From: a virus
Virus record (IMG/VR): IMGVR_UViG_3300042691_021189
Location: 1-23,019 of that record
Strand: one strand, 5' to 3'
DNA length: 23,019 bases
In this document: one piece after another, positions 7,581-22,251 of the stretch
Position numbering within the stretch: position 1 is the first letter of the stretch
How the letters are laid out: each line of letters starts with the position of its first letter
Translations under genes and position numbers: made by a program
The notes under the pieces: model-generated
Database searches by the model: none
Seen by the model: the letters and a program-made list of their open reading frames with translations, nothing else
Told to the model about the DNA's origin: nothing

Positions 7581-7832
7581 ATGAACGAACATGAAAAAAA
7601 CATAGAAGCAATGAAAGAACTACGCTCTAGAATTGATAAAGTACTAGCTGGTGAGCCAGAGCCAGAAATAAACTATAAACATCCTGATCCAGTCAAACAC
7701 AAATACATTAGTTTTGCTAAGAGTGCCGTTAGAGTTGCAGCAGGCGTGGCATTGTGTTATAGTATGCTTTGGTATGCAGGTAGTTTATTAATACTTGCAG
7801 AAGTGTTAGGTGTCGCAGAAGAAATGGTATGA
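7581..7832 (+). CDS. small membrane protein of unknown function
   Basis: An 83-residue protein with TTGGAGG at 7567-7573 as ribosome site. Residues 1-48 are hydrophilic and charged (NIEAMKELRSRIDKVLAGEP), then one long or two short hydrophobic segments run from about 50 to 78 (AVRVAAGVALCYSMLWYAGS, LLILAEVLGV). The N-terminus is probably cytoplasmic. It is the first gene after the nested promoter, and its stop overlaps the next start (ATGA at 7829-7832). No family is recognised. Confidence 0.65.
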   Translation: MNEHEKNIEAMKELRSRIDKVLAGEPEPEINYKHPDPVKHKYISFAKSAVRVAAGVALCYSMLWYAGSLLILAEVLGVAEEMV

Positions 7833-8269
7833 GAGTAGGGTTTACTTGTTCAACATTTGATTTGTTTCATGCCGGGCATATTATGATGCTCGAAGAAGCA
7901 AAAAAACAATGTGACTTTTTGATTGTGGGATTACAGACCGATCCTACTATTGATCGTCCGGAAAAAAATAAACCAGTACAAACATTATTTGAAAGATTCA
8001 TTCAATTGAATGCCTGTAAGTTTGTAGATCAAATTATACCGTATGCCACAGAGAAAGAACTACGTGACATATTGCTTTCTTTTAGAATAGATATTAGAAT
8101 ACTGGGTGAAGAATACAAAGGCAAAGAATTTACAGGTTGGAATATTCCAACTGAATTCTATTTTAATCAACGTAGGCACAGTTTTTCAACATCCGAACTG
8201 CGCCAACGTGTCATAGAGGCAGAACATGAAAGAACTATGGGTAGAAAAATATCGTCCGAAAACAGTTGA
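7829..8269 (+). CDS. TagD-like cytidylyltransferase (HxGH nucleotidylyltransferase)
   Basis: A 146-residue protein with the complete signature of small cytidylyltransferases related to glycerol-3-phosphate cytidylyltransferase. It has an N-terminal strand and G-F-T-C-S-T-F-D-L-F, the nucleotide-binding HAGH at residues 14-17, RPEKNKPVQTLFERF around 43-57, and the second signature STSELR at 120-125, equivalent to the ISSTxxR loop. Such enzymes join a nucleotide to a phosphorylated alcohol or sugar and release pyrophosphate; the substrate cannot be told. The C-terminus overlaps the clamp-loader gene by 44 bases. Being beside replication genes may point to nucleotide or cofactor metabolism, though that is inference. 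Confidence 0.85.
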   Translation: MRVGFTCSTFDLFHAGHIMMLEEAKKQCDFLIVGLQTDPTIDRPEKNKPVQTLFERFIQLNACKFVDQIIPYATEKELRDILLSFRIDIRILGEEYKGKEFTGWNIPTEFYFNQRRHSFSTSELRQRVIEAEHERTMGRKISSENS

Positions 8270-14607: not shown

Positions 14608-15085
14608 AATTTTAAAACAAAAAATGCCAGACTTTGATTTTTACAGCGAAACTGATCCAGTAAAGCTAGAAAAAGAAATGATAGATATCATGCATCAAAG
14701 TAACGGTATAGGTCTAAGTGCGAATCAAGTTGGATTTAGGGGTCGAGTGTTTGTAATGCAGCCTCAAATACTAGACAACAAAACACCTTTCGCATTATTC
14801 AATCCAATTTTATTAGAACAAAGTAAAGAGGAATCACTAAATGAAGAGGGCTGTTTAAGTTTTCCAAATCTTTTTTTAGAAGTTAAACGATCAAAAAAAA
14901 TTAAAGTACAATATGTTGACAAGCATCAAAATACCTGTATAATAGAACTTACAGACATAGATGCTCGATGTTTTCTTCATGAATTAGATCATCTAAACGG
15001 TATATGTTTTACAGATAAAATCAGCCAACTTAGATTAGCATTAGCGTTAAAGAAACAGAGGAAAAAGAATGGTAGAACCAAGTGA
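14582..15085 (+). CDS. def: peptide deformylase
   Basis: A 167-residue metalloenzyme that removes the formyl group from new N-termini. All three signature motifs are present: [10 protein letters not shown] at residues 42-51, E-G-C91-L-S at 89-93, and H133-E134-L-D-H137. C91, H133 and H137 bind the metal and E134 is catalytic. Length is near the bacterial norm (about 168). The start lies 26 bases inside dnaJ and the end overlaps clpA by 17 bases, so the three are likely translated together. Phage deformylases are known from marine phages. The basic tail ([14 protein letters not shown]) differs from many cyanophage forms, which end soon after the HExxH helix. Confidence 0.93.
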
Positions 15086-17345
15086 GAGCCTGAAGTTAGT
15101 TTTTGAAAAGGCTATTGATGTAGCAAGAAAATTGAAGCATGAGTATCTTACCATAGAACATTTATTGTTTGCTATGCTCTGCGAAGATTCATTTTTTAAC
15201 AATGTACAGGGATACGGGGCGGACCCAGATTATATTAAAAAGAATTTAGAACACTATCTTAAAACCAAACTTAATGATATTATTAATGAAAATGTTGATA
15301 AGCCTAAGAAAACACAAGCCGTAGAAAGGGTTTTGAATCGTGCCTTTACTCAAGCACTGTTTAACGGTCGCCAATTGATGGAATTGACTGACGTGTTTTT
15401 AAGTATAATGAGTGAAAAGCGCAGTTGGAGTTTGTATTACATTCAACAAGCAGGCATCGATAAAGACAAATTTGCAGATTATCTCAGTAATGAAATTGGC
15501 GGAGAAGAGGAAGAAGTGCAAGACGGACAAACTGAACGTGCTCTTAGGGCATTTACAACAAATCTAAATGAGCAGGTTAAGAAAAATAAAATCGATCCTG
15601 TGATTGGAAGGATAACAGAGCTTGAAAACGTGGCGTTAGCCATGGGACGTAGAAATAAAAATAATGTCATGCTTGTAGGAGATCCAGGTGTAGGTAAAAC
15701 TGCTATAGCAGAAGGGCTTGCTTTTAATATTGTAAAGGGTGCTGTTCCAGATTTTCTAAAAGAATATACTGTATATAACTTAGATGTCAGTGCCATGCTT
15801 GCTGGCAGTAAGTATAGAGGTGATTTTGAAGAAAGATTTAAGTTTGTTTTGAAGGGTCTACAAACTAAAGGAAAAACTATCCTGTTCATCGACGAAGCAC
15901 ACATGATTAGCGGAGCAGGCAGTGCTGGTAACAGTGCCAACGATCTCAGCAATATGATGAAGCCAGCGTTGAGTAAGGGCAATATTAAGGTAGTTGCAAG
16001 CACAACTTGGGAAGAATATCGAAAATACTTTGAAAAAGATCGTGCGTTAATGCGCAGATTCCAAAGAATCACTGTTGAGGAACCCACTTCAGAAGTGTCA
16101 GTGCAAATTTTAAAAGGTCTTAAAAAATATTACGAACAACATCATAATGTTAAAATTACTGATGATGCCATACAAGCCGCGGTCAAACTCAGTGTAAAAT
16201 ATCAAAGCGACAAAAAGTTGCCAGACAAAGCCATTGATTTGATCGACTGCGCATGTTCTAGATTTAATATCAAGTTGGCCGCTGACAGGATTATTAACGA
16301 GTCAGAGATTCAGTATGAACTAGCACAAATGGTTCAAATTCCCGAAGAGCAGATAGCTGAAACAGAAAGTAATAATCTTTCTAATTTAGAAGATCAACTT
16401 AAGACTGAAGTTTACGGTCAAGACACTGCAATTAATGAAGTTGTTGATAAAATACTTGTTGCTCGTGCAGGTCTAAAATCAGATAATAAACCCATCGGAA
16501 GTTTTGTATTCATGGGTCCTACTGGCACTGGCAAAACTGAAACTGCTAAATCACTCGCAAAGAATCTCGGAGTTAAACTTTTAAGATTTGATATGAGTGA
16601 ATATCAAGAAAAGCATAGTGTAAGTAAATTAATCGGTAGTCCTCCAGGATATGTGGGATTCGAAGAAAACGCCGGATTGTTGATTACACAAATTCAAGAA
16701 AATCCCTATTGTGTTTTACTATTTGATGAAGTAGAAAAAAGTCATCCAGATGTCAGTACAATTCTTTTACAACTTATGGATAATGGATTCATTACCGGAA
16801 GCAACGGTAAAAAAGCAGATTGTAGAAATGTAATATTAATACTGACCACAAATGCAGGCGCTCAGGAATCAGAAAAACTAAAAATTGGTTTTGGGGCTCA
16901 GGAAAAGGATTACGAAGATAAAGAACTTAAAAAATTCTTCAGTCCAGAATTCCGTAATCGTTTAGATGCTGTAGTTTCCTTTAAGAAGCTTGGTAAAGAA
17001 ACTATGGTTAAAATTGTTGGCAAATTTATCGACGAGCTACGTGAGCAGGTCAAAGACAAAGGTGTTAAGATTAAGATCAACGACGCTGCTATCAACTTAC
17101 TCATTGACAAGGGTTTCGATGCTAAGATGGGTGCAAGACCACTACAACGTACTATTGACCAAATGATCAAACGACCTTTAAGTAAGATGATATTATTTGG
17201 GGAATTGAAGGACGGTGGACAACTAAATATCGGCGTCGAAAACGATAATTTAGTGTTAACTAAAAAAATAAAGATACCAAAGATCACTGTTGAAAATGAA
17301 ACTGAATCCGAACATTCAAATCAAAAGAACCAAGAAACTATTTGA
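15069..17345 (+). CDS. clpA: ClpA-like AAA+ unfoldase
   Basis: A 758-residue double-AAA+ protein, matching E. coli ClpA in length and plan. Residues 1-145 form a Clp N-domain (LKLVFEKAIDVARKLKHEYL, TIEHLLFAML). The first ATPase has Walker A GDPGVGKT at 204-211 and Walker B ILFIDEAH around 271-278. The second has GPTGTGKT at 483-490, VLLFDEVEKSHPDV around 549, and F-S-P-E-F-R-N-R-L-D. There is no ClpB-type coiled-coil insert. An I-G-F tripeptide at 606-608 matches the ClpP-docking loop, so it may recruit host ClpP to degrade selected proteins. No ClpP or ClpS gene is in view. It overlaps def by 17 bases and the next gene by 50. Confidence 0.93.
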   Translation: MVEPSESLKLVFEKAIDVARKLKHEYLTIEHLLFAMLCEDSFFNNVQGYGADPDYIKKNLEHYLKTKLNDIINENVDKPKKTQAVERVLNRAFTQALFNGRQLMELTDVFLSIMSEKRSWSLYYIQQAGIDKDKFADYLSNEIGGEEEEVQDGQTERALRAFTTNLNEQVKKNKIDPVIGRITELENVALAMGRRNKNNVMLVGDPGVGKTAIAEGLAFNIVKGAVPDFLKEYTVYNLDVSAMLAGSKYRGDFEERFKFVLKGLQTKGKTILFIDEAHMISGAGSAGNSANDLSNMMKPALSKGNIKVVASTTWEEYRKYFEKDRALMRRFQRITVEEPTSEVSVQILKGLKKYYEQHHNVKITDDAIQAAVKLSVKYQSDKKLPDKAIDLIDCACSRFNIKLAADRIINESEIQYELAQMVQIPEEQIAETESNNLSNLEDQLKTEVYGQDTAINEVVDKILVARAGLKSDNKPIGSFVFMGPTGTGKTETAKSLAKNLGVKLLRFDMSEYQEKHSVSKLIGSPPGYVGFEENAGLLITQIQENPYCVLLFDEVEKSHPDVSTILLQLMDNGFITGSNGKKADCRNVILILTTNAGAQESEKLKIGFGAQEKDYEDKELKKFFSPEFRNRLDAVVSFKKLGKETMVKIVGKFIDELREQVKDKGVKIKINDAAINLLIDKGFDAKMGARPLQRTIDQMIKRPLSKMILFGELKDGGQLNIGVENDNLVLTKKIKIPKITVENETESEHSNQKNQETI

Positions 17346-17995: not shown

Positions 17996-18457
17996 ATGAC
18001 TGAAAAGGGACTTTCACATTACATGGAATTAGTCGAATCCGATGGGACTGACATATATCAGGGAGATGGGTTCTATTTCATGCTGGACGAAGATACTGGC
18101 GTAGAAACAGAAGTACTAACTGCCTGGGATGACGCTATCTTAGTTGAACTAGATCAAACAGCACTGGCTCTACTTCAGGACATTGGCGCAAAATTTATAG
18201 ATTCCGATGATCTAAATGAAGCAAAATATCAAGGTAGAACCGTACCTTTGGGCAAGCCTATGAAAGGTGATGTAGCCAAAAGCAAAGTTTATGTTCGCAA
18301 ACCGAATGGTAAAATTGTTAAAGTAAATTTTGGCGACAAAAAACTCAGTATTAAAAAACACATTCCTGGCCGTAGAAAAAGTTTCCGTGCCAGACACAAC
18401 TGTGCCAATCCGGGCCCACGTTGGAAAGCACGTTATTGGAGTTGTAGGGCTTGGTAA
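17996..18457 (+). CDS. phage protein with Arg-rich Cys-containing C-terminal domain
   Basis: A 153-residue protein with two parts. The N-terminal 90 residues are acidic (MELVESDGTDIYQGDGFYFM, LDEDTGVETEVL). The C-terminal 60 are strongly basic: KVYVRKPNGKIVKVNFGD, then KKHIPGRRKSFRARHNC and P-G-P-R-W-K-A-R-Y-W-S-C-R-A-W. I recall closely similar ends in proteins of T4-like marine phages, without an assigned function. C136, C150 and H134 might form a metal or disulphide site, and the Arg cluster could bind nucleic acid. It follows a palindromic late promoter and probably belongs to virion or head assembly. These roles are inference. Confidence 0.7.
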   Translation: MTEKGLSHYMELVESDGTDIYQGDGFYFMLDEDTGVETEVLTAWDDAILVELDQTALALLQDIGAKFIDSDDLNEAKYQGRTVPLGKPMKGDVAKSKVYVRKPNGKIVKVNFGDKKLSIKKHIPGRRKSFRARHNCANPGPRWKARYWSCRAW

Positions 18458-18458
18458 T

Positions 18459-18839
18459 ATGAAAATCACAGAACTTTTTAATAATCCAAAAAAACCAATA
18501 GATCAACTATTAGGTAAAGAAAAAGATCACGATATTGACAGTGACGAATTTAAATTTGATCTCGGTGAAGATTTAATTTATTTTATGCACAATAATGATG
18601 ATTTCTACAGAAGGAACCTTTTCCCAGTACTAAAAGTATGCAAAAGAAAATTTGATCTTGGACAAGGTTTCAGTCACCGTATGTTCAAGCCAATCATAGC
18701 TAAAGCATACGAAGCTTACAAAAAAGAATTTCCATTGAGAGAATTACAAGACAGGTTAGAAGAAGAAAAATGTGATGCTATAGCCAAAGAAATTTATAAT
18801 ACTGAGCTAGGTCACATGAAAGATGGAAAATACGAATAA
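18459..18839 (+). CDS. unknown protein with Alt-like N-terminus (M-K-I-T-E-L-F)
   Basis: A 126-residue protein. The ATG at 18459 is chosen because it follows the upstream stop by one base; the open frame extends to 18330 only over the conserved end of the previous gene. The N-terminus MKITELF resembles the start of T4 Alt (MELITELF, from memory), where the prohead protease cuts after the E. The rest is charged and helical (FDLGEDLIYFMHNNDDFYRR, KPIIAKAYEAYKKEFPLREL), with no known motif. The stop overlaps the start of the 1033-residue gene (TAATG). It may be a packaged internal protein or a partner of that enzyme; this is inference. Confidence 0.65.
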   Translation: MKITELFNNPKKPIDQLLGKEKDHDIDSDEFKFDLGEDLIYFMHNNDDFYRRNLFPVLKVCKRKFDLGQGFSHRMFKPIIAKAYEAYKKEFPLRELQDRLEEEKCDAIAKEIYNTELGHMKDGKYE

Positions 18840-21800
18840 TGTTTTTAAGAGAACTTTTTTCGCCTTTGGCAAAGTTTCTACTTTATGAAGGCGGCAACTT
18901 AGTTATAGGTGATGTCGAAGCAAACAAAATCGACACTAGTCAAAGAGCCAGTGTCGTGCCTATACTTGACAACGCACTTACAGCAATCAACAAGGCCTAT
19001 GCCGCACAACACGGCAATAAAGGCATATGGAATCCTAAATTATTGGCTAGTAAAAAATTCTTAGCAGGCTCCAGTTTTCATTTCTTTGATCGTACAGGCA
19101 TATCTGATGAAATTTTTACACAGGTAAAAAGAACTGTTGGCGACATTGACACAATGATCGATAAGGACAAAAGAGATGACGTACTTACTTGGTTATCATC
19201 TCTTTCACAAGGAGCTGTAGTAGGACCTGCACGTTTTGTTGGGTTTGATGATAAAGATCCTGTGCAAATATTAACTATGTGGCAATTCCCTGATATTGTT
19301 ATCCAAAACAATGAAGGAAAACAATTTCCAATCAATATTCAAATAGATTTGGAAATGAAAGAATATGAAAACGACGAACCAACTACTTGGAGTCAATTTA
19401 GTACTAGTAGCAGTTGGGAAGATATCAGTGTTGGAGTCAAAGGTGTATTTCATAAATTTTTAATACAAAGTATGACTGGGTTAACTGCCAAAGACTTTAT
19501 GCTTAGAAAACTTGTGGGTCGAGGTAAAGCTCGTGCACCACAAGACATACCTACTAGAGATAATATGTACAGTTTTGCCATTAAATCAAAAGAAGGTGGC
19601 GGACTTAGACCCAAGTATGATCCAGTAATAGATCCGACTACTGGCAAACAAGAAATAGTAGATGGATTGCCTGTATTTGAACCACGTGCAACTACTGGCT
19701 ACGAAAAAGATTTAGGTAAGATATTTCAAACTATTTTTGGCTCTAGAATGAAGCCAAAAGATTTAAATGCACAAAAAGAGAAATTTTGGAGTTTTGTTGG
19801 TGTAGCAAGTTTGATGAAACAGTATTTGACTCCCGAAGAGCAAAACGAAGTTGTTGATAGTTTTTTAGAAAAACTTTTTGCTCCCGGTGCACAAGGTCTT
19901 TATGCTAATGATAAAGAAAAAGATCAGCAAGAAAAATCAGCTGCTGTAGATAAACTATTTGACATATTAGAAACTAATCCTCCAAAAGGATTGGATCAAA
20001 TGAAACAGCAATACTATGCTGCCTATAAATTAAGAGAAAGTATTTTTGAAGCAGAAGAAAAACCAGAAGTAGTACAAAGCAAACGTAAAAGCATAGTTCA
20101 TTTAGAAAAAATGAAAGATATTGACTTTTTAGATTTACTTGATGAATTACGTGATGAAACTAACGATAAAATAACATTGGATAATATTCCAATGACTGTT
20201 AAAATTGACGGCTTTGGATCACGTTTTGGAAAAAGCGAAGACGGTAGGGCATTTTACGAAACCAGTAGAACTGGGCCTAAATTTGGTCCTGGTAAATTCT
20301 TAAAATATCATCTAGAAAAAGGCACACAGGACGAAGAAATTTTACGCAGAGCTGGATTATTTGATCAACTGCAAGATAAAATTATGGGTGTGATTGAACG
20401 TATTGATAAGCAATTAGGTAAAAACTTTTTAACTGATGTTAAAGTACACGTGGAAGTACTATATCTCCCGTTTGCCAGCGAACAAGAAGACGGTAGATTA
20501 AAATTTGTTGGTATAAGCTACGACAAATTACCTGAAGGTGTTGATCTAGCACTAATTCCTTTATTTGCCGAAATTGGCAGCAGTGGTGCAAAACATCCTA
20601 AAAGTAATCTAATAATCAAACAATTAAAAAATATTGGCAACATGGGTGATACAATGTTCATAGATAATAATCTAACTACTGATGGTAGTATAGATGTTAC
20701 TGGGCTTATACCCCCTATGGAAAATTTAGAAACATTAAGAAGCATGATTCTAAGTAACAAACGTGATGCTAAAAAAGAAGCAGCCGAAGCTTTACAACCA
20801 TTAAAAGATAAACTAGCAAATTACATCATTGAACACCCAGGTATATTAGGTAAAGATATATTAGGTAGAGACTACGAAGGTATTATTTTAAACAGCAAGC
20901 AGGGTCCTGTAAAAATTACCAGTAAGCAACAAAAAGATATAATCAAAGCTAAAAATGATGCTATTAAGGCTGCAAAGCCCCCACAAGCAGATCCTAACAA
21001 ACCCAAGTCAGGCAAAACTGCTGTAGTGACTATCGGTAGTTTCATTGGTCACATTGGTCATCAACAACTAGTCAATATGGTTTTAGATAAGGCACAAGCG
21101 TTAGGTGCTGATCCGTTTGTTTATATCAGTAGTATGACCGGACCGGATGATCCTATTCCACCAGAAGTTAAATTTGAAACTTGGCAAAGACTGTATCCAG
21201 ATCAACGTGAAGTATTTTCACTGATACAGCCCGGCGGCACTCCTGTTAAAAAAATAGAAAAAGAACTAGTAACTGTAAGTAATCCACCGCCTTACGATAA
21301 AATTATAGTAATGGTAGGCGATGATCGTTTTGAAGGTATGCGTAAATGGATGCAACACCTAAGTAAGCGTATGAAAAATCCGCAGTATCCAGGTTTTGAA
21401 CATGTGGAATTTGATGTAGAAAATACACCAAGAAATCCAGATGAAGGCGGCACTGGTATGAGCTTTACCGAATTACGTAATGTATTAAAAGACACAAGCA
21501 AAACAGCACAAGAACAATTTATTGCTTGGCGTAAAGCGTTTGATCCAATATTAGATGATAAATGGATCAAATATCTAATGACTGTGGCGAGAAAAGGAAT
21601 GGGCATACAAGTTAAAAAAGATTTAAAAGAAAGTGTAATGAGTGAGATTGATTATCAAATTGGTAATAAATTGGACAGAGCCATTGCACTTTACAAAAAG
21701 AAAAGAATCAATGACGAAACTTTAGGCGACTTCACTATTAAGTTAGCCGGCAACGTGGCTAGAAAATTAGACCTAGATCAAGATGCAGTACAAGGTGTTA

Positions 21801-21940
21801 TTAATGACTATGTGGATAACGCATTGTCAGATTTAGATGAAGAAGCCGCTGGTGTTGGAATTGTTACAAAACAAAATACAACTGCTGACGTTGGTCCTGG
21901 TACGTTAGGTAAAATGTTAAGAAGTTTGAAACTAGCATGA
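18839..21940 (+). CDS. large multidomain nucleotidyl-transfer protein (NTase + ligase-like + HxGH domain)
   Basis: A 1033-residue protein with three apparent nucleotidyl-transfer domains. (a) Residues 70-210: a Pol-beta-type NTase pattern, GSS at 77-79, G-D-I-D at 101-104 and I-Q-I-D-L-E at 167-172; this is the least certain. (b) Residues 415-710: an ATP-dependent ligase-like adenylation domain with motif I K455-I-D-G-F-G-S-R, motif III-like VHVEVLY (E539), motif IV Y-E-G-I-I-L (E680) and motif V-like V-K-I-T-S-K (K692). (c) Residues 725-905: a cytidylyltransferase-like fold with G-S-F-I-G-H-I-G-H at 733-741 and M-S-F-T-E-L-R at 874-880. A helical tail follows. The N-terminus MFLRELF fits a prohead-protease site. 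No known enzyme of this layout comes to mind; RNA or nucleotide end-processing is a guess. Confidence 0.8.
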   Translation: MFLRELFSPLAKFLLYEGGNLVIGDVEANKIDTSQRASVVPILDNALTAINKAYAAQHGNKGIWNPKLLASKKFLAGSSFHFFDRTGISDEIFTQVKRTVGDIDTMIDKDKRDDVLTWLSSLSQGAVVGPARFVGFDDKDPVQILTMWQFPDIVIQNNEGKQFPINIQIDLEMKEYENDEPTTWSQFSTSSSWEDISVGVKGVFHKFLIQSMTGLTAKDFMLRKLVGRGKARAPQDIPTRDNMYSFAIKSKEGGGLRPKYDPVIDPTTGKQEIVDGLPVFEPRATTGYEKDLGKIFQTIFGSRMKPKDLNAQKEKFWSFVGVASLMKQYLTPEEQNEVVDSFLEKLFAPGAQGLYANDKEKDQQEKSAAVDKLFDILETNPPKGLDQMKQQYYAAYKLRESIFEAEEKPEVVQSKRKSIVHLEKMKDIDFLDLLDELRDETNDKITLDNIPMTVKIDGFGSRFGKSEDGRAFYETSRTGPKFGPGKFLKYHLEKGTQDEEILRRAGLFDQLQDKIMGVIERIDKQLGKNFLTDVKVHVEVLYLPFASEQEDGRLKFVGISYDKLPEGVDLALIPLFAEIGSSGAKHPKSNLIIKQLKNIGNMGDTMFIDNNLTTDGSIDVTGLIPPMENLETLRSMILSNKRDAKKEAAEALQPLKDKLANYIIEHPGILGKDILGRDYEGIILNSKQGPVKITSKQQKDIIKAKNDAIKAAKPPQADPNKPKSGKTAVVTIGSFIGHIGHQQLVNMVLDKAQALGADPFVYISSMTGPDDPIPPEVKFETWQRLYPDQREVFSLIQPGGTPVKKIEKELVTVSNPPPYDKIIVMVGDDRFEGMRKWMQHLSKRMKNPQYPGFEHVEFDVENTPRNPDEGGTGMSFTELRNVLKDTSKTAQEQFIAWRKAFDPILDDKWIKYLMTVARKGMGIQVKKDLKESVMSEIDYQIGNKLDRAIALYKKKRINDETLGDFTIKLAGNVARKLDLDQDAVQGVINDYVDNALSDLDEEAAGVGIVTKQNTTADVGPGTLGKMLRSLKLA

Positions 21941-22251
21941 AGCAATACAAAATAACTTCTGATAATATTAGTAAAGATAGTCCAGATGACTGCTATCTAG
22001 ATCCTAACGATCCTATACAAGAAATAAAAGTTCTACAATATTTAGGCGGCATTAATGCCCAAGGCAGATTATATGAATATCGTCTGCAGAATCAAAAGGC
22101 AGCACAAGGCAGTAATATCAGTGTAACAGGTAATGAAAAAGGCGAGCTTATGAAAAAACATAATATCAAACCTGGAACACCAGAATGGTTTAAGCTATGG
22201 TTCAGTTTACCATATCTTACTGGCGAAGGGCCTGTCGACAAAAGTCGATAA
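21937..22251 (+). CDS. small unknown protein downstream of the triple-domain enzyme
   Basis: A 104-residue protein coupled to the large enzyme by ATGA at 21937-21940. It is hydrophilic, with SPDDCYLDPNDPIQEIKVLQ and YLGGINAQGRLYEYRLQNQK in the first part and MKKHNIKPGTPEWFKLWFSL at the end. No motif, signal peptide or membrane segment is visible. Tight coupling suggests it could be a partner of the enzyme or another virion protein. A late promoter box overlaps its stop codon and serves the endolysin gene. I do not recognise a family. Confidence 0.65.
   Translation: MKQYKITSDNISKDSPDDCYLDPNDPIQEIKVLQYLGGINAQGRLYEYRLQNQKAAQGSNISVTGNEKGELMKKHNIKPGTPEWFKLWFSLPYLTGEGPVDKSR

Follow-up and report, generated by a model that had tools for sequence, protein, structure and literature searches.

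Bacteriophage T4 has a set of internal head proteins (IPI, IPII, IPIII and Alt) that bear a short N-terminal leader ending in (I/L)xE before a small residue. The T4 protease gp21 cleaves after L/I-X-E (PMC9026906), and the ten N-terminal residues of IPIII are reported to be enough to carry foreign proteins into the head (PMC9026906; PMC10229621). Here, a gene with a leader of this kind was analysed in the 23-kb virus record IMGVR_UViG_3300042691_021189, whose whole stretch of 23,019 nucleotides is referred to as the window. The gene encodes a 1033-residue protein with three different nucleotidyltransferase (NTase) domains, here called D1, D2 and D3. We favour, with some reserve, the explanation that this protein is a polyprotein that would be cut by a gp21-type protease, packaged into the head, ejected with the genome and used as a nucleic-acid end-repair kit. 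The likeness to the T4 proteins extends to gp21 itself, which 11 of the 21 family records tested encode, and to a putative major capsid protein with the same type of site wherever it could be read. The T4 proteins, however, are small single proteins, whereas here one leader would serve three catalytic domains and an internal site is predicted as well; the 17-residue leader of the window protein is also identical to no T4 leader.

Three other described systems resemble the window protein in part. The polyvalent proteins of phages and plasmids combine numerous enzymatic domains of unrelated kinds in a single polypeptide, and their injection along with the DNA has been proposed (PMC5512222); long relatives of the window protein likewise add lysozyme, amidoligase and GP88 domains. 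The window protein differs from them in having no metallopeptidase or ArdC Pfam match and in its predicted cleavage by a prohead protease, and the NTase-ligase-HIGH trio is not among the proteins described in the available portion of that paper; a weak M78-like match was seen upstream of D1 in one relative (L041) only. Phage tRNA repair by Rnl1 or Rnl2 together with RlaP (PMC7824862) also combines a ligase-type KxDG domain with a Pol-beta NTase, but the window protein has a third, HxGH domain and is probably delivered in the virion. Finally, HxGH adenylyltransferases have been detected by mass spectrometry in cyanophage virions, namely the NMNAT ORF91 of S-SCSM1 (PMC9602691), the cytidylyltransferase ORF154 of S-CREM2 with three unique peptides (PMC10665884) and the cytidylyltransferase gene 140 of S-SZBM1, along with gene 139 (PMC9146016). 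These proteins, unlike the window protein, stand alone, and the accessible literature on S-SCSM1 ORF91 does not discuss its leader. Neither the trio nor its link to a prohead protease was found described in the searchable part of the open PMC literature, which does not prove that no description exists.

Three nucleotidyltransferase domains in one protein

The initial annotation had read the open reading frame (ORF) as a Pol-beta-type NTase, an ATP-dependent ligase-like adenylation domain and an HxGH cytidylyltransferase-like domain. Its coordinates and its length of 1033 residues were correct, and the motifs were found where they had been placed (GSS 77-79, GDID 101-104, IDLE 169-172, KIDG 455-458, E539, E680, K692, GHIGH 737-741 and MSFTELR 874-880). 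The ORF is not a chance product, since full-length relatives and many D1 relatives exist. IMG/VR contains two close full-length relatives, with best segments at 100% and 82%. D1 relatives are encoded by 154 stretches, and the best 80 of these were kept for reading. Fifty-eight non-redundant D1 proteins were distinguished, comprising 39 D1-D2-D3 fusions, four D1-D2 fusions and 15 proteins with D1 alone, with fused proteins of 913 to 2135 residues.

All three family assignments proved right at the level of motif and fold, as judged by conservation and AlphaFold2 models, the fold match of D1 being modest. Absence of an NTase or ligase fold, or loss of K455, D457, E539 or the GHxGH residues in homologues, had been named as what would speak against them. 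The folds were recovered in the structure models, and across 40 fused sequences, the window included, K455, D457, G458, E539, E680, K692, G737, H738, G740, H741, D170 and R880 were invariant, while G77, S78, D102, D104, S875 and T877 were at least 90% conserved. The full-length model had a mean predicted local distance difference test score (pLDDT) of 85.0 and a predicted template modelling score (pTM) of 0.44, and the relative placement of the domains is therefore not fixed by the model. Searches of the window protein against Pfam gave sub-threshold matches only, to FAD synthetase in D3 and to CTD1 and Phi6_P8, the last two being taken as chance; over the 40 fused rows, FAD_syn was matched in 20 and three other families in one row each. 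No match was returned by PADLOC.

D1 belongs to the Pol-beta superfamily, as the GS motif, the DxD carboxylates, a third Asp and, in the model, the palm fold are all present. A model of D1 alone reached a mean pLDDT of 95.1 and a pTM of 0.90. Its best structural neighbours were Pol mu, beta and lambda and TdT, with a top Z of 7.3 over 180 residues at a root-mean-square deviation (rmsd) of 4.0. Among the 50 structural matches listed, 49 were to Pol beta, mu, lambda or TdT and one was to TUT7, another member of the superfamily; these counts are to be read with the richness of the PDB in Pol beta entries in mind, the best Foldseek E value for D1 being 9.6e-3. Residues G77, S78, G101, D102, D104 and D170, which include the three catalytic carboxylates, were invariant in 55 D1 rows. 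A PDB profile match of D1 to Colicin-E1 (one row, E 0.052) was taken as chance. D1 matched phrog_19290 (3e-18), and this family and that of D2 (12709) are both listed as of unknown function. Pfam includes an RlaP model, and no RlaP-type match to D1 was seen, which does not exclude RlaP. As D1 and D2 match no Pfam family above cut-off, we do not assign them to RlaP, Rnl1 or Rnl2.

D2 is a member of the covalent nucleotidyltransferase superfamily of RNA and DNA ligases and capping enzymes, with KxDG, motifs III, IV and V and an adenylyltransferase-domain fold in the model. It superimposed on the Naegleria gruberi RNA ligase with a Z of 10.9 over positions 411-704 (189 residues, rmsd 3.4), and in the list of 50 structural matches that covers D2 and D3, both D2 rows were to this same RNA ligase. 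K455, D457, G458, E539, E680 and K692 are also kept in Xanthomonas phage X1 and Stenotrophomonas phage Moby. DNA ligases have an oligonucleotide/oligosaccharide-binding (OB) fold C-terminal to motif V; the D2 model has none there, a helix (696-712) alone preceding D3, so that D2 as modelled lacks a defining part of an ATP-dependent DNA ligase. Weak rows to PC4/SFRS1-interacting protein in a PDB profile search of D2 (E 0.19 and above) were taken as chance.

D3 belongs to the HIGH/cytidylyltransferase-like superfamily, with HxGH, SxTxxR and the modelled fold all present. It matched phrog_3041 (4e-16), and its structural matches to PPAT (Z 13.1), NadD (12.2) and NadM (12.0) all lay within about 1 Z unit; RibF was returned by a PDB profile search. 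A second, stand-alone HxGH adenylyltransferase gene, heptose adenylyltransferase-like (phrog_7878) and distinct from D3, lies at 7829-8269 of the window on the plus strand.

Predicted cleavage sites and the prohead protease

The three domains had initially been taken for a single working enzyme, which they probably are not, since cuts are predicted by the sequence at E17/G18 and E404/A405 (a slash marks the predicted cut). Sites were scored as [ILV]xE followed by A, G or S, with V at P3 and A/G/S at P1' added to the published pattern, and gene starts were set by a simple Shine-Dalgarno rule and no gene caller. Two of the 58 D1 proteins (L054 and L043) are truncated and were left out of the N-terminal count. 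In 53 of the 56 assessable proteins, a variable leader ends in [ILV]xE directly before GGN (GSN in one), as in LYE17/GGN of the window and FVLE/GGN of L091. With the ORFs as delimited here, the leader measured 8 to 22 residues in 49 of 52 cases. In L035, L041 and L050, where the ORF extends 124, 139 and 509 residues further upstream, the junction still reads LME/GGN, ISE/GGN and ITE/GGN, respectively. E17 was present in all 38 alignment rows with a residue at that position, the adjoining positions being variable.

A corresponding signal was found between D1 and D2. The linker contained [ILV]xE in all 43 D1-D2 fusions, against 17.1 expected when each linker was shuffled, and [ILV]xE[AGS] in 34 of the 43, against 4.2 expected. 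Control patterns were not enriched in the same 43 linkers, with [ILV]xD in 8 (10.5 expected), [ILV]xK in 11 (14.5) and [FYW]xE in 4 (8.2). E404 was kept in 37 and A405 in 32 of 40 alignment rows, again with variable adjoining positions. Between D2 and D3, [ILV]xE occurred in only one of 39 linkers (5.5 expected); the model is likewise uncertain there, with a mean pLDDT of 55 for the block 711-720, yet no site is present. Per 1000 residues, [ILV]xE[AGS] occurred 8.0 times in linkers, 3.1 times in D1, 1.0 in D2 and 0.9 in D3, and 52 of the 66 D1 sites were the N-terminal one. The C-terminal tails of the family held 65 sites against 30.3 by shuffling. In the AlphaFold2 model, pLDDT fell below 50 at 1-16, at 398-409 and over most of 1000-1033, and both predicted cuts lie in such segments.

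The 11 records with gp21 (PF03420 above cut-off) include four with the fused gene (L015, L029, L057 and L090), and records without it may be fragments. The ORF two genes past gp21, which from its place and sequence we take to be gp23, the major capsid protein, could be read in five genomes and gave LNE/A in X1, VNE/G in Vibrio phage phiKT1024, LHE/A in the genome of L088 and LAE/S in Moby and in G004, a 219-kb record. The N-terminus of T4 IPI reads MKTFKEF...TITE/A (MKTFKEFTSTTTPVSTITE/A), the cut presumably falling after TITE. Leader-like starts were also seen in neighbouring genes: in 36 non-redundant loci hand-picked from the 80, a strict leader pattern was matched by 34 of 389 non-D1 genes, against 3.9 when shuffled and 6 in an internal control. 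This pattern is descriptive, since it was written after the leaders of the D1 family had been seen. A set of genes starting MRAxEF[IV]xE/[AGS], for example MRAKEFVQE/G, was noticed in these loci and in G004 as candidates for further ejected proteins. The late promoter TATAAATA occurred within 600 nt upstream of 8 of 88 D1 genes, which is uninformative. Judged by these sequences, cleavage of the polyprotein by a prohead protease is probable, and packaging into the head is nearly as probable in those phages that bear the leader.

Relatives, split genes and neighbouring genes

The layout, at first regarded as known from no characterised enzyme, turned out to be that of a phage family whose parts are separate neighbouring genes in other phages. 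In two loci (L038 and L065), D1 is encoded apart from a D2-D3 protein, which gives the same two products as the predicted cleavage would. D1-D2 is followed by a separate D3 in L071 and L087, all three domains are separate in L075 and L081, and a D1 gene is followed by a D2 gene in L060, L070 and L088. Alignment likewise confirmed separate genes in the same order, with an extra protein after D1, in Moby (048, 050 and 051) and in X1 (317, 319 and 320). In phiKT1024, D1 is followed further on by a gene with a D3 match and KxDG in its N-terminal half. D1 is also present in Campylobacter group II phages. A scan of GTDB genomes returned one contig (L119) in an Anaerolineae metagenome-assembled genome. 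Over the stretches displayed, its long ORFs, those for D1 and D2 among them, look the same as those of L088, which probably makes it a phage contig that was assigned to the bacterium in binning.

Longer relatives carry added domains, namely Phage_lysozyme and LysM (L019), Amidoligase_2 with a sub-threshold second NTase match and DUF6934 (L062), and GP88 (L039). The very long relatives (L019, L033, L034, L062 and L039; 1272-2135 residues) look like fused whole head-protein cassettes, and repeated VAE/G or VAE/A sites were seen in L033 and L034. In L070 (7077-9029), D2 is joined to DUF6267 in one protein, the DUF6267 part of which holds a second KxDG. A DUF6267 protein is also encoded by HTVC008M (gp127) and a relative of it by DLP6 (gene 66), both near cytidyltransferase genes; a P-loop protein with GGPGSGKT adjoins the cytidyltransferase gene in L012 (5255-5917; HTVC008M gp129). 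Between the D2 and D3 genes of L081 (5417-6907) lies a 496-residue protein related to S-SM2 gene 160 (E 2e-25), a kinship that connects the cyanophage cassette to the D1-D2 loci.

The connection to the cyanophage virion proteins was examined through S-SCSM1 ORF91, which is 69.6% identical to an S-SM2 protein that in turn matches D3 of the window at 5e-6. Against the D3 profile, which includes its cyanophage kin, ORF91 scored 2e-94. Its N-terminus reads MKSFLQFLKE/AAE. The neighbours of this NMNAT gene in L118 (1539-7017; S-SCSM1 genes 89-93), genes 89, 90, 92 and 93, carry the annotation 'virion protein' as well, and gene 90 has what we take to be a possible PD-(D/E)XK pattern. No D1 or D2 match was obtained by profile in six cyanophage, pelagiphage and other phage loci, nor by tblastn in cyanophage records (D1 at E 1e-5, D2 at E 10). 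The D1 protein of phage IBB_35 is AEF56792.1, and for the IBB_35 virion a list of 38 proteins found by mass spectrometry exists (PMC3322345). In the available literature on CP21 and CP220, including part of the gel legends, no D1 homologue is named.

The window is probably a fragment. Its gene content is T4-like, with a clamp loader, PhoH, dCMP deaminase and baseplate and head proteins, and genes for a ClpA-like protein, peptide deformylase, DnaJ and an endolysin surround the 1033-residue ORF. The 126- and 104-residue genes overlap this ORF by 1 and 4 bases, respectively. The features and their recurrence are collected in Table 1; neighbours were counted in 46 non-redundant loci hand-picked from the 80, and the counts are lower bounds because several loci end near D1.

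Table 1. Coordinates of the polyprotein gene, its predicted parts and adjoining genes in the window.
Feature	Position	Strand	Basis or recurrence
D1-D2-D3 polyprotein gene, 1033 residues	18839..21940	+	ORF, full-length relatives, 40-row alignment
N-terminal leader, residues 1-17, MFLRELFSPLAKFLLYE, T4 capsid-targeting-leader-like	18839..18889	+	predicted cut E17/G18
D1, residues 18-404, Pol-beta-superfamily nucleotidyltransferase (GS 77-78, D102, D104, D170)	18890..20050	+	
D1/D2 linker, predicted prohead-protease site ESIFE404/A405	20030..20065	+	pLDDT and conservation
D2, residues 405-715, RNA-ligase-like covalent nucleotidyltransferase (K455xDG, E539, E680, K692)	20051..20983	+	
D3, residues 724-925, HxGH adenylyltransferase, PPAT/NadD/NMNAT fold	21008..21613	+	
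C-terminal tail (residues 926-1033), helical and then disordered, with a candidate site DLKE931/S	21614..21937	+	
Coupled upstream 126-residue protein	18459..18839	+	family in 11/46 loci, 10 of these directly upstream of D1
Coupled downstream 104-residue protein	21937..22251	+	family on either side of D1 genes, 21/46 loci
153-residue protein, phrog_7595 C-terminal module	17996..18457	+	8/46 loci
ClpA/B-like AAA+ ATPase	15069..17345	+	27/46 loci, most frequent of eight window neighbours tested

Proposed role and alternative explanations

If the protein is processed as predicted, its leader would direct it to the prohead core, where a gp21-type prohead protease would remove the leader at LYE17/GGN and cut at IFE404/AEE. 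The products would be D1 with a GGN N-terminus and a protein of the two domains D2 and D3, which might also lose part of its C-terminus; these mature enzymes would remain in the head and go into the host along with the DNA. By fold, D1-type enzymes add a nucleoside monophosphate to a hydroxyl, D2-type enzymes form an enzyme-adenosine monophosphate (AMP) intermediate and activate a 5' phosphate, and D3-type enzymes transfer AMP to a phosphate. In the host, D1 could extend broken or clipped ends by nucleotides, D2 could activate and seal them via AMP-lysine at K455, and D3 could move AMP onto nicotinamide mononucleotide (NMN) or another 5'-phosphate, which would restore NAD+ or serve end activation. 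As D2 is RNA-ligase-like and shows no OB fold in the model, we infer that D1 and D2 act on nucleic-acid ends, RNA being likelier than DNA; end repair itself, probably of RNA such as tRNA, is put forward tentatively, at slightly less than an even chance. The initial suggestion of a dedicated repair or host-takeover unit is still a sensible conjecture, and the 126- and 104-residue neighbours included in that unit do recur, but nothing ties them to the chemistry.

Several observations weigh against processing and packaging, or against the evidence adduced for them. The D1 proteins of Moby, X1 and phiKT1024 start Met-GGN with no leader (3 of 56; X1 was counted as annotated, and an in-frame upstream extension exists), and D1 in these phages presumably works without such packaging. 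Three of the five putative gp23 sites come from these leaderless phages. In the D1/D2 linker, the reversed control Ex[ILV] was itself moderately enriched (29 of 43 against 17.4), and separately encoded D2 genes had a site within their first 26 residues in 4 of 10 cases, with 3 more given a longer start. Among the 34 leader-like neighbours, at least six are ClpA- or DnaJ-like genes and presumably matched by chance. Genome-wide in G004, the loose leader pattern lacked specificity, with 20 of 245 genes matched (8.1 when shuffled, 15 in the internal control), and the strict pattern was weakly enriched (11 of 245 against 2.2 and 7); the D1 gene of this record also lies about 85 kb away from the gp21-gp23 genes. 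No late promoter of the above sequence was found in the window. Fold support for D1 is modest, with a best Z of only 7.3. The virion reports concern NMNAT or cytidylyltransferase proteins alone, of which only S-SCSM1 ORF91 was verified as a D3 relative, and the authors of the S-CREM2 (PMC10665884) and S-SCSM1 (PMC9602691) reports consider that such proteins may be lysate carry-over.

The leaderless D1 genes would also suit a trifunctional RNA-repair enzyme that is produced after infection and stays uncut in the cytosol, with an RlaP-like NTase, an RNA ligase and an NMNAT as its parts and [ILV]xE as a structural or ancestral motif, and phage tRNA repair by RNA ligases and Pol-beta NTases is an established theme (PMC7824862). 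This is nevertheless considered unlikely, because the sites are conserved in disordered linkers, have almost no counterpart between D2 and D3 and are kept at the junctions despite upstream fusions; a clear Shine-Dalgarno sequence just upstream of two of the three Met-GGN starts further suggests that a free GGN end matters. The leaderless genes can instead be taken to mean that intracellular synthesis also yields a working enzyme, in which case packaging would be a variation in delivery. A packaged kit might also serve DNA: together with nuclease-like neighbours, D1 would fill gaps as Pol X enzymes do, D2 would be the DNA ligase, and their targets would be the ends and nicks of the phage genome on entry. 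This account would agree with the likeness of D1 to Pol beta, mu, lambda and TdT, with the human DNA ligase I listed by Foldseek for the full model (presumably via D2) and with the position of cyanophage D3 copies in the uvsX-gp41-gp61 replication region. Such a kit appears rather improbable, however, given a D2 model that, unlike DNA ligases, has no OB fold after motif V and D2 matches among the 50 listed that are both to one RNA ligase.

Packaging could also serve host takeover or counter-defence, with D3 as an NMNAT restoring NAD+ against NAD-depleting defences and D1 and D2 nucleotidylating proteins or metabolites. The NMNAT/NadD/PPAT fold of D3 and the amidoligase, lysozyme and GP88 domains of longer relatives are in keeping with this, and NAD+ synthesis by a virion NMNAT has been proposed by cyanophage authors (PMC10665884; PMC9602691), but a ligase-type KxDG domain fits the scheme poorly and the HxGH fold by itself leaves the substrate undefined, so that we regard it as an unlikely account. 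Least credible, and very improbable, is the reading of D3 as a cytidylyltransferase for glycerol phosphate or sugar phosphates, with a role for the protein in glycosylating the virion or in surface polysaccharide. The public annotation 'cytidyltransferase', the mention of glycerol-3-phosphate cytidylyltransferase in PMC9146016 and the separate heptose-adenylyltransferase-like gene elsewhere in the window would favour such a role; against it, the structural rows listed for D3 are overwhelmingly adenylyltransferases (PPAT, NadD, NadM, NMNAT and FAD synthetase), and the directly adjoining genes with family matches are non-sugar.

The observation of three NTase domains in one protein is real, and its probable processing and packaging are of more interest than a single trifunctional enzyme would be. 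Folds have now been assigned to D1 and D2, the domains of two PHROG families without a listed function. It is possible, though somewhat less likely than not, that a large group of T4-like phages pack a ready-made kit of a terminal nucleotidyltransferase (D1) and a ligase-adenylyltransferase (D2-D3), released by the prohead protease and ejected to reverse a host nuclease or NAD-depleting defence before phage genes are expressed. If the polyprotein is indeed cut and packaged, phages would import tRNA or DNA repair enzymes matured by the head protease, besides making such enzymes after infection, and the recurring NMNAT-like 'cytidyltransferases' of cyanophage virions would be explained in part. 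A short leader ending in [ILV]xE, followed by A, G or S, would then provide a sequence rule for the ejected proteins of T4-like phages and would point to the defences that the ejected enzymes are meant to counter.

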